Below, one piece after another: positions 55,634 to 64,000 of a stretch of DNA of 64,000 nucleotides (positions are counted from its first letter, which is position 1; every line of letters begins with the position of its first letter). Where the stretch lies: NCBI GenBank assembly GCA_913062645.1, contig CAJXVW010000001.1, positions 124,001 through 188,000 on the forward strand, given 5' to 3'. The notes beneath the pieces are model-generated. The model had not been told where the DNA came from, did not search any database, and saw nothing but the letters and a program-made list of their open reading frames with translations. Made by a program: the position numbers and the translations under genes. The DNA comes from an uncultured Mycoplasmatota bacterium (lineage in GTDB: Bacteria > Bacillota_I > Bacilli_A > Izemoplasmatales > Izemoplasmataceae).

Positions 55634-55666
55634 ATAATAGCAAAGTGTTTTGACAAAATCGTGACA
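55634..55666 (-). promoter_or_regulatory. Two-repeat TGTCA box and promoter
   Basis: Minus strand: TGTCAC (55666-55661), TGTCAA (55655-55650), period 11; ten bases later TATTAT (55639-55634) as -10. Confidence 0.75.
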
Positions 55667-55668
55667 AA

Positions 55669-57084
55669 TCAGGAACTTTTTATGGGAACGATCAGTTTGG
55701 CGACCACTTCGCCGTTGTCGTTGAACAACTTGTAGTCGTAGCCGTAGAGATTGCAGATCTGTTTGACGATGAACAAGCCGAGTCCCGACCCTTCACGGTT
55801 CACGCCCAAGGTGTCGGCGCGGGTGAAGGAGTCGAAAATGGTGCGGATGCGTTCGGGGGCGATTTCGCCTTTGTTGCGAACGGTGATCGCGTAGTGTCCG
55901 TCAATGGCGTCACCCTGAATGCGGACAGTGCCGTCGGTGGTGTAAATCATTGCGTTCTTGACGAGATTGACAACGGCAATGGCCAACAGTTCCGGATTGA
56001 TTGTCAAGGTCGCCTGAGGGAGTTCGGTGTGGAGTTTGACGCCGCGTTTCACGCGCAGTTCCTCAAGTGTCGCGAGCGCGTCTTTGATATCGGTTGTAGA
56101 GGTCGTGTCATCCGGGTTGATCTTGTCTTCGAGACGAAGCGTGTAGGTCAGATCGCGGGTGATCGTTTCAATCGCATGAATTTGATCCAGCACTTCGTGC
56201 AAGTACTTGTCGCGGTCGTTGTAGCGACCGACCTTGTCGAGCATGCCTTCGACCATCCCGCGCATCACCGCCAGCGGCGTTTTCAGTTCGTGATTGATGG
56301 TCATGATGAAGTGTTGCTTTTTCTCTTCCTGGCGCTGTTTGTAATCGATCTGATCGACCAGTTGGAGATTGGCGTCGTTCAACTCGGCGTAGGTTTTCTG
56401 CAGGTTGAAGGTCATCTCGTTGAGACTGGTGACAAGCTCGCGGAATTCGTCCTTGCGGTTGAGACGGAGATCCCCGTCGAACTTGAGATTGCTGATGTCT
56501 TTGGCGTACTTGTTGATTTTTTTTAGTGGTTGTGTCATGTTGAGCGAAATGATCAGCGACAACAAGGTGATGACGATCAACATCGCGATCGATTGATAGA
56601 GGTTCAAAATCGTCAGTACGCGGTCGACGTTTGTGAGCGACTGGATGCGCGTGGTGATGATCAGATAGTCGCCGAACTCGAACTCATAGATGTAGTTGAT
56701 GCGATAGATGTCGTCGACTTGTTCGACGTAATAGGTGAGGTTGTCTTCGACGATGGCCTCGTCGTTGTCGTAGATGGCGATGACGAAGTCGAGAATGTCT
56801 TCCTCACCGAGGTAGTTCGGTCCGATGCGTTCGGTGTCGCCAAGTAGCTGATACCGGATGAACGACGTTTCACTGGACAGATCCGCCAGTGCGGTCCGAT
56901 CGAGTTCGGTGCCGTCGCGAATGGCGGGAGCGGCCAGGACAATGGCCTCCTTGACGGCCTCGATGTTTTCTTCGATGTACATTGGGGAGAAGCGGTTGTA
57001 GGAAATGTAGACGCTGAGCAGGAAGACCATCGAAAACGACACCAGCAGCATCAAGAATGTCTTGGTGAAGATGTTCAGTTTCAT
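55669..57084 (-). CDS. Sensor histidine kinase
   Basis: 471 aa. Helix (8-30), extracytoplasmic sensor (about 31-160), second helix (about 165-188), HAMP, HisKA with INHELKTPLAVM, and HATPase with NLVKNAMIYT and GSGLGLFIVKQ. It is the cognate kinase of the response regulator just upstream (36 bases apart). The sensor domain has no family I recognise. The regulated genes on both sides are lipoproteins, so a cell-envelope or solute signal is likely. Confidence 0.94.
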   Translation of the reverse strand: MKLNIFTKTFLMLLVSFSMVFLLSVYISYNRFSPMYIEENIEAVKEAIVLAAPAIRDGTELDRTALADLSSETSFIRYQLLGDTERIGPNYLGEEDILDFVIAIYDNDEAIVEDNLTYYVEQVDDIYRINYIYEFEFGDYLIITTRIQSLTNVDRVLTILNLYQSIAMLIVITLLSLIISLNMTQPLKKINKYAKDISNLKFDGDLRLNRKDEFRELVTSLNEMTFNLQKTYAELNDANLQLVDQIDYKQRQEEKKQHFIMTINHELKTPLAVMRGMVEGMLDKVGRYNDRDKYLHEVLDQIHAIETITRDLTYTLRLEDKINPDDTTSTTDIKDALATLEELRVKRGVKLHTELPQATLTINPELLAIAVVNLVKNAMIYTTDGTVRIQGDAIDGHYAITVRNKGEIAPERIRTIFDSFTRADTLGVNREGSGLGLFIVKQICNLYGYDYKLFNDNGEVVAKLIVPIKSS

Positions 57085-57119
57085 GATGACCCTCCTTTCC
57101 CCGTGATTGCATGATTGGG

Positions 57120-57785
57120 TTATGCTTCGAGTTTGTAGCCTTCCTTGAAGACGGTTTTGATGTAGGATGCGGCTTCGCCGAGTTTTTTGCGCAGACGCTT
57201 GATGTGGGTGTCGACGGTGCGGGCGTCGCCGAAGTAGTCATATCCCCAGACCTTGTTGAGGAGATCCTCACGAGAGAAGACCCGGCCGGGATGGTGCAAG
57301 AAGAGCATCAGCAGATCCCACTCTTTCTTGTTGAGTCGGATTGCTTCCTCCGCGACGCTGACCGAATGGCCGGTGACGTCGTACGCGATGATGCCGAACT
57401 GTTTGACACCGGTATCTTCTCCGCCGGAGCGGGCGAGAACGGCTTCGATCTTCTTGATCACCAGTTTCGGACTGTACGGCTTTGGTACGAACTCGTCGAT
57501 CCCCAGATCATACCCACGCAGTTGATTGTCCTCGTCGGACAATGCGGACAACATGATGACTGGCGCGTCACTGGTTTCCCGCAACAACTTGACGAGTTGG
57601 AACCCATCGATGTTGGGCAGCATCACATCGAGCAAAAACAGATCGTAATCCGCCTCTTTGATGCGCACGCTGGCGTCGTAGCCATCGAACACCTGATCGA
57701 TGACGCTGTCGGGATACCGATTGCGTACGTAGTCGTACAACAGGTCGTTCAAATGTTTTTCATCTTCGACAATCAGAAATTTCAT
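57120..57785 (-). CDS. OmpR/PhoB-family response regulator
   Basis: 221 aa from ATG 57785; the longer frame has no ribosome site. Receiver with phospho-acceptor Asp in LFLLDVMLPN and Lys in PKPYSPK, then a winged helix ending with VWGYDYFGDARTVDTHIKRLRKKLGE. Members bind tandem direct repeats with an 11-bp period, which is exactly what lies between this gene and the VWA gene. Confidence 0.95.
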   Translation of the reverse strand: MKFLIVEDEKHLNDLLYDYVRNRYPDSVIDQVFDGYDASVRIKEADYDLFLLDVMLPNIDGFQLVKLLRETSDAPVIMLSALSDEDNQLRGYDLGIDEFVPKPYSPKLVIKKIEAVLARSGGEDTGVKQFGIIAYDVTGHSVSVAEEAIRLNKKEWDLLMLFLHHPGRVFSREDLLNKVWGYDYFGDARTVDTHIKRLRKKLGEAASYIKTVFKEGYKLEA

Positions 57786-57859
57786 GATCCCACATCCTTG
57801 CTGTTTCTCTACTTTATAGAATACCACAAATAGCAGTCGAGGGAAACCCATTTTTGGAA

Positions 57860-57914
57860 TGTCATAAGCTTGTCATAGATGTGTCATAACTTTGTCACAT
57901 GTGATGCCTAGAAT
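57860..57914 (+). promoter_or_regulatory. Four-repeat TGTCA box and promoter of the VWA lipoprotein
   Basis: TGTCATA at 57860, 57871 and 57882 and TGTCACA at 57893, exactly 11 bp apart. Ten bases after the last TGTCAC is TAGAAT (57909-57914). No -35 element is needed if the bound regulator replaces it. The box may also act leftward on the regulator gene. Confidence 0.85.
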
Positions 57915-62584: not shown

Positions 62585-64000
62585 TCATTGGCCGTTGATG
62601 TAATTGAGGATGTCGGTCGCACCGACATGCTCTTCGAGGACCTCGTTGCTCGAGATCACGAGCAGCGCGGGCACGGCGTCGACCAACGCGCCATCGGAAT
62701 TGGCCACGAGGGACAGATTCAGGAAGTAGACTTCACCGAAATCTATGGCGTACTCGTAGATTTGCTCTTCGATGTCCTGACAGAAGTCGCAGTCGTTGCC
62801 GTAGACATAGATGATGTACTCGTGTTCGCCCATCATCAGGGCTTCGTCCCAACTGTAGAGGTGGACGAACTCCGCAAACAGACCGTCGGTTCCGGTATCG
62901 TCGGGAACGCATTCCCCATCCACCAGGACTGTTCCGTCGGTGCAGGTCACGTCAGGATCTACGGGTTCTTCCGGTTCGACTTCACCAGGGATGTCTTGTT
63001 CGCGGCTTTCGCCGATTTGGACCTGATTCAGGATCGTCGCCGGATCGGCGAGTGTCGAGACCATCACGAATTTGCTGCTGATGGTGTAGAGGTAGTCGCT
63101 GATGAATTTCGATTTGTACACGTAGGTGTCCCAGCTGTTGGCTTCGCTGTGTTCGACACGGGCGCGTTCGCTGATGGTGCCATCTTCCAGATCGAGATTG
63201 AGCACCAGGACGCCGGTCGTGTAGGACCATCGATAGTCGTTGTCATCGCTGCCGTAGGTATTCTCGGTGTAGGGAAGTGCGATGATGCCTTTGTCGAGCG
63301 ACACCAGCAAATCCTTGTGGTTGTAGACCGTCGAGGTCCACATGTAGCTTCCTTCGGAGTACGGATAGATGAGTTCGCTGGCGACGACGGCATTGGTCTT
63401 GTCGCTGACGTCATAGAGCGAGATCTTGAGACCTTGCGTTCCGCCTTCGTTGTCACCGTAGCCGATGCCGAGGATGAAGTCTTCGTTGATCGGCTGCAAA
63501 TAGTCGCTGAACCCGGGGATTTCAAGTTCGCTGAGTTTGGTCGGGTTGGTCGGGTCGGACAGGTCGATGACGTAGAACGGGTCGGTGCGGAGGAACGTCA
63601 CGACGTAGGCGTAGTCGCCGACGAAGCGGGTCGACTGGACGCTTTCACCCGGTTTTCCGAGGTGTTCGAGGGTGCTGATGATCTCGAGATCGAGATCAAG
63701 AACCATCAGGCGGTTGTTGATGTCGTCCTGCTCGGTACCCCACCACCACCAGTTGAACCCGGTGGTGACGATGCGGACGTATCCGTCCTTCTCGTCCATC
63801 GCGAACTGATCGAGCGCGACACCCGGAACGTCGCCGCTGGCGCCGAATGAGACGATCGCGTCATCGATGGCGATGCGGATGATCGAGGTCGTGATCTCAT
63901 AGGGATCCTCTTCGGGGACGTACTCTTCGTCATTGTCCGCAGCTTCTTCCATTTCCAGAAGTAGCGCATCGTTCCAGTTCCATTTGGTGCCGGTCAGATA
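62585..64000 (-). CDS. Exported beta-propeller protein with C-terminal thioredoxin-like domain (5' partial)
   Basis: At least 471 codons; the frame is open to the right edge, so the N-terminus, and any signal peptide, lies outside the window. The visible N-terminal three quarters are a beta-propeller of the Beta_propel family (DUF/PF09826 type; repeated blades such as GDYAYVVTFLRTDPFYVIDLSDPTNP). A Cys-pair module CTDGTVLVDGEC follows, then a thioredoxin-fold domain with an active-site CxxC in GNDCDFCQDIEEQI and the cis-Pro loop AVPALLVIS. The propeller could bind a surface partner and the thioredoxin reduce or isomerise its disulphides. The fusion is not one I know. Confidence 0.88.
   Translation of the reverse strand, partial: YLTGTKWNWNDALLLEMEEAADNDEEYVPEEDPYEITTSIIRIAIDDAIVSFGASGDVPGVALDQFAMDEKDGYVRIVTTGFNWWWWGTEQDDINNRLMVLDLDLEIISTLEHLGKPGESVQSTRFVGDYAYVVTFLRTDPFYVIDLSDPTNPTKLSELEIPGFSDYLQPINEDFILGIGYGDNEGGTQGLKISLYDVSDKTNAVVASELIYPYSEGSYMWTSTVYNHKDLLVSLDKGIIALPYTENTYGSDDNDYRWSYTTGVLVLNLDLEDGTISERARVEHSEANSWDTYVYKSKFISDYLYTISSKFVMVSTLADPATILNQVQIGESREQDIPGEVEPEEPVDPDVTCTDGTVLVDGECVPDDTGTDGLFAEFVHLYSWDEALMMGEHEYIIYVYGNDCDFCQDIEEQIYEYAIDFGEVYFLNLSLVANSDGALVDAVPALLVISSNEVLEEHVGATDILNYINGQ

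Follow-up and report, generated by a model that had tools for sequence, protein, structure and literature searches.

A dedicated two-component system and TGTCA repeats at 11-bp pitch define a probable micro-regulon of surface lipoproteins in bacteria without peptidoglycan transpeptidases

Introduction

What does a two-component system control when it lies between two lipoprotein promoters that carry the same short repeats? In the window (the whole 64,000-nucleotide stretch of DNA that was analysed) a minus-strand operon encodes, in this order, a response regulator, a sensor histidine kinase and a small lipoprotein, and the gene of a second lipoprotein with a VWA domain diverges from it. A preliminary description of this DNA had proposed that the regulator controls both lipoproteins through 11-bp repeats that replace the -35 contact. 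The regulons of wall-less bacteria are, to our knowledge, hardly described, and in the literature we searched we found no description of a TGTCA-box lipoprotein module. Here we compare the locus with its relatives and conclude, with good confidence, that a dedicated two-component system is likely to control a micro-regulon of surface lipoproteins via TGTCA repeats at 11-bp pitch.

Results

Genes of the locus

The regulator carries a receiver domain (PF00072) and a Trans_reg_C domain (PF00486), both above cut-off, which places it in the OmpR/PhoB class. Its closest NCBIfam model is PhoB, with scores that fall under the equivalog cut-offs (TIGR02154, 178 bits against 296; NF007546, 138 against 471). 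The kinase has an extracytoplasmic domain of approximately residues 30-160, and its sensor part was WalK-like in a fold search with modest TM-scores. Orthologues of the kinase share 49-63% identity across the first 250 residues.

We found no match for the small lipoprotein in Pfam or NCBIfam, and its homologues at the equivalent position in related loci are only 16-32% identical. The AlphaFold2 model is all-helical with a pLDDT of 88. A fold search with this model gave no significant known match, thus no function could be derived from the structure. The divergent lipoprotein has an N-terminal vWF_A domain, VWA and YfbK_C domains, a lipobox and an intact DxSxS metal-site motif at residue 175, and is of the YfbK type. 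Searching the sequences of solved structures returned only generic VWA domains for this protein, and nothing significant for the small lipoprotein or for the DUF4349 protein described below.

Table 1. Features of the module, with coordinates in the window or, where a contig is named, in the genome.
Feature	Position	Strand	Remarks
Small lipoprotein, 244 aa	54864-55598	-	third operon gene, own two-box promoter; lipobox LLAACA
-10 box TATTAT, small-lipoprotein promoter	55634-55639	-	11 bases past the last TGTCA, as in 19/19 loci
Two TGTCA boxes, 11 bp apart	55651-55666	-	boxes begin at 55666 and 55655; upstream of small lipoprotein, downstream of kinase
Sensor histidine kinase, 471 aa	55669-57084	-	HAMP, HisKA, HATPase_c (Pfam)
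OmpR/PhoB-family response regulator, 221 aa	57120-57785	-	receiver and winged helix (Pfam)
Four TGTCA boxes, 11-bp spacing	57860-57897	+	boxes begin at 57860, 57871, 57882 and 57893; upstream of VWA lipoprotein
-10 box TAGAAT, VWA promoter	57909-57914	+	
YfbK-type VWA lipoprotein, 531 aa	57949-59544	+	vWF_A, VWA, YfbK_C (Pfam)
Third site, before DUF4349 lipoprotein	C2:222592-222555	-	another contig, same geometry

Both lipoprotein promoters carry TGTCA boxes at a fixed distance from the -10 box

The promoter of the VWA lipoprotein reads TGTCAtaagct TGTCAtagatg TGTCAtaactt TGTCA catgtgatgcc TAGAAT, and that of the small lipoprotein reads TGTCAcgattt TGTCA aaacactttgc TATTAT (55666-55634 on the minus strand). 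The preliminary description had reported such boxes at both promoters, ending ten bases before the -10 box, and we could confirm this in each case; its ten bases follow a six-letter box and equal the 11 bases that we count after TGTCA. It had also noted that a normal -35 is missing. Consistent with this, the region 16-18 bp before the -10 holds no TTGACA-like sequence at either promoter, with ATAACT and ACGATT, for example, found there. A sigma-70 scan of the promoters gave weak matches at shifted positions.

We found one four-box match (at most three mismatches) in the window, compared with 0.01 in shuffled sequence. The array is also the sole occurrence of an exact run of at least three boxes in the 1.99-Mb genome, and the reversed-pattern control gave none. 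Two-box pairs with at most one mismatch occur in the window at chance level (8 observed, 7.3 expected), and the significance of the two-box site is, on sequence grounds, one of geometry and conservation in relatives, not of count. Since this promoter sits in the small intergenic space that separates kinase and lipoprotein, it could, to judge from its position, raise the lipoprotein without raising regulator and kinase.

A third target lies on another contig

Searching the genome for exact two-box patterns (not with a weight matrix, so weaker sites may be missed) gave ten matches, of which three belong, overlapping, to the window array and five fall within reading frames; the remaining two are the small-lipoprotein site and a site in a third promoter. 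The same boxes in front of many unrelated genes, which the preliminary description had named as evidence against its proposal, were not seen. The third promoter, which had been overlooked, precedes a DUF4349 lipoprotein and reads TGTCAtaggtt TGTCAcagttt CTTCAagggtt TGTCA-N11-TAGAAT. The three target lipoproteins share a similar stretch, ADYDP or ADWDP, after the lipid-anchor cysteine.

The window holds a further lipoprotein gene, a PF09826 beta-propeller (62585-64000 on the minus strand, with its start outside the window at L150:3027). We considered it as a fourth target and rejected it, since its promoter is without a TGTCA box pair. The C-terminal stretch of this protein has a CDFC motif and is, in our own reading and with no domain match, possibly thioredoxin-like.

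The boxes and their geometry are conserved in relatives

The regulator-kinase-lipoprotein operon was found in about 20 genomes of the Acholeplasma/Izemoplasma type. These comprise 18 loci from a kinase-based scan of named genomes, five of which are apparently the same records as among the relatives, together with the window and the relative G001. Isolates carry the module as well (Paracholeplasma vituli, Tenericutes bacterium MO-XQ and strain zrk7; the first is locus L146). Of 60 relatives, 6 have an orthologue of the regulator (59-65% identical). Only 3 of the 61 genomes contain the exact three-box pattern, and each of these has a regulator orthologue; the reversed control matches none.

The small-lipoprotein promoter is covered by 19 loci, and in all 19 it has two boxes (at most one mismatch), N11 and a -10 box. 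Among 17 divergent promoters, 15 have four boxes, with the third often degenerate, and two have a single pair. Some of the conserved boxes are TGACA instead of TGTCA. The two-box arrangement was absent from all 159 other upstream windows of the same loci and is reached by 0.1% of Markov shuffles. When 14 module-bearing genomes were searched in full, the two-box geometry was found in each (14/14) with no control matches; most had one or two matches, and several of the extra ones lie within reading frames.

The divergent gene itself differs across relatives: it is VWA, DUF4349 then VWA, DUF4349, or a secreted protein plus VWA. Boxes precede DUF4349 in G001, G035 and zrk7, with two boxes in zrk7, and relatives' DUF4349 genes away from the module locus can carry boxes too. 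These comparisons, from about 20 genomes and a null of 0/159, support the proposal that the regulator would control both lipoproteins through repeats that take the place of a -35. The confinement of exact three-box arrays to genomes with the orthologous regulator points the same way.

Several sites lie outside this pattern. In a few genomes a lipoprotein is preceded by a matching site although no orthologous regulator is present. One of them is G055, which has no close regulator orthologue; here two boxes with N11 lie upstream of a small lipoprotein (L126:5561, minus strand). A further two-box N11 promoter in G001 (L122:3634-3705, plus strand) precedes a lipoprotein without a Pfam match. In G013 a second YfbK-type VWA lipoprotein is encoded elsewhere (L058:5539-7218, minus strand), without TGTCA boxes.

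The module regulator is the best candidate to read the boxes

The genome encodes three full OmpR-type regulators, the module regulator and two others, and 11-bp repeats would suit any of them. The boxes could conceivably be bound by the second OmpR regulator (at C2:416310) or by some other protein, and their closeness to the operon could reflect co-inheritance. We regard this as very unlikely. The second OmpR regulator is common among relatives without such arrays. The arrays go with the module regulator, and in most cases lie divergent from its gene. The recognition helices differ as well: module regulators have RTVDTHIKRLR with few changes, compared with RVVDVHIFKLR and RIVDTYVKKLR in the other two. 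The module helix is close to that of E. coli PhoB, RTVDVHIRRLR, and the E. coli PhoB box is CTGTCAT repeated at 11 bp (PMC4832192). This agreement of helix and box is independent support, short of proof, for the module regulator as the predicted reader of TGTCA.

We observed a comparable locus in another genus of the family. Three of its genomes encode an OmpR regulator of another kind, at about 43% identity, whose recognition helix is that of the module regulator. The regulator gene is divergent from a large gene (sites L123 3859, L124 4128 and L125 3817, all on the minus strand), which in L123 encodes a PF09826 beta-propeller, and the divergent promoter has two TGTCAC boxes with N11 to the -10. 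Regulator and promoter may together form a second module of the TGTCA type.

The resemblance to PhoB raises the question of whether the module is a phosphate regulon with Pho boxes, bound either by the genome's own PhoB or by the module regulator acting as one. The E. coli Pho box has the sequence TGTCAT(A) at 11 bp (PMC4832192), and PhoB is the best NCBIfam model for the module regulator. However, a pst/phoU locus elsewhere in the genome has its own PhoB-type regulator with a PnpS-like kinase; like the module regulator, this pst-linked regulator scores under the PhoB equivalog cut-off. No TGTCA promoter pair is present at pstS, phoB or Na/Pi-phoU, whose promoters have repeats of the TTAACA type. 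In this phosphate cluster (L033:8537-12190) the pstS and Na/Pi-phoU promoters carry them as TTAACA/TTTACA or TTAAG pairs with 11-bp spacing. In the tree, the module regulators group in a single clade (support 100/99) that excludes the other two OmpR-type regulators of the genome, its PhoB among them, as well as E. coli PhoB, and none of the module targets is a phosphate gene. Given this separate PhoB and its own type of box, we reject the phosphate regulon, to which we assign very little probability. One genome thus seems, from the sequences, to hold PhoB-type regulators that use two box codes.

An origin of the repeats in chance or base composition is next to inconceivable: single pairs with at most one mismatch are about as frequent in the window as chance predicts, yet the four-box array is unique in 2 Mb, the spacing is fixed, and the conservation in relatives (19/19 and 15/17) together with the empty control windows (0/159) rules it out.

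Discussion

Control of the lipoproteins by the module regulator suggests the following circuit. The kinase would sense a signal outside the membrane and phosphorylate the regulator, which would bind the TGTCA repeats head-to-tail at 11-bp pitch, one monomer per repeat. With the last two repeats over the -35 region, the regulator would recruit RNA polymerase in place of the -35 contact. Two repeats (one dimer) would serve the small lipoprotein that adjoins the kinase, and four repeats (two dimers) the VWA lipoprotein and the distant DUF4349 lipoprotein. We infer that the module regulator binds the boxes, activates, and does so under the control of phosphorylation; activation as the direction of control is suggested by the geometry alone. 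The difference between two and four repeats is conserved throughout the clade and thus probably meaningful, which makes a design with one dimer in one case and two in the other likely.

No PF00905 transpeptidase was found in the genome or in 60 relatives, compared with its presence in 10 of 14 control genomes. The hosts are therefore very probably without a peptidoglycan wall, and wall damage is unlikely as the signal. Of the envelope stress or nutrient module suggested by the preliminary description, the phosphate version is disfavoured, as above; an envelope function is suggested only by the lipoprotein nature of the targets. Our guess is that the kinase responds when the membrane surface of a wall-less cell is disturbed, and that the small lipoprotein may feed back on the kinase. 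A broader reading, which we offer tentatively and consider rather doubtful, is that the module would be a wall-less membrane-surface stress response. In this view, promoter strength in the dedicated lipoprotein regulon would depend on whether one regulator dimer (two boxes) or two (four boxes) can bind, and a new family of all-helical lipoproteins would act back on the kinase. A regulator lineage of its own would use the TGTCA code known from proteobacterial PhoB, and the PhoB of the same cell would read TTAACA.

What appears to be new here, and apparently undescribed, is a conserved micro-regulon in bacteria without peptidoglycan transpeptidases. The module is small, self-contained and conserved across Acholeplasma/Izemoplasma relatives, and it gives a testable prediction for each promoter. 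The regulon would link YfbK-type VWA and DUF4349 proteins, which are widespread and of unknown function, to one signal. The genome is also a natural setting in which to compare PhoB-type regulators that would read TGTCA or TTAACA within one cell.

Comparison with known systems

The two-component systems WalKR-YycHI, CseABC and CpxP act on the envelope or wall and have an operon-encoded lipoprotein or membrane accessory. The module shares with them a lipoprotein in the operon, and the fold search relates its kinase sensor to WalK. It differs in that its hosts are without PF00905 and in that the small lipoprotein could not be related to any solved structure.

The mechanism we propose is, by analogy, of the type known for OmpR/PhoB regulators. 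PhoB and M. tuberculosis PhoP bind head to tail as one monomer per 11-bp repeat, with the last dimer over the -35 (PMC4832192, PMC3348028, PMC4415409). M. tuberculosis PhoP binds in tandem to 7-bp repeats with a 4-bp spacer, and tandem trimers and tetramers have been reported (PMC4832192). The 11-bp pitch, the subunit per repeat and the tandem dimer are shared with our proposed module, and tetramers would fit four boxes (PMC4832192); the box sequence TCACAGC and the regulon are different. E. coli PhoB and its Pho box come closest, with a winged-helix OmpR/PhoB regulator, TGTCA-core 11-bp repeats that replace the -35 and a similar recognition helix (PMC4832192, PMC4415409, PMC3348028). In contrast to E. 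coli PhoB, the module regulator belongs to a separate clade without phosphate targets and shares its genome with a distinct PhoB that has other boxes.
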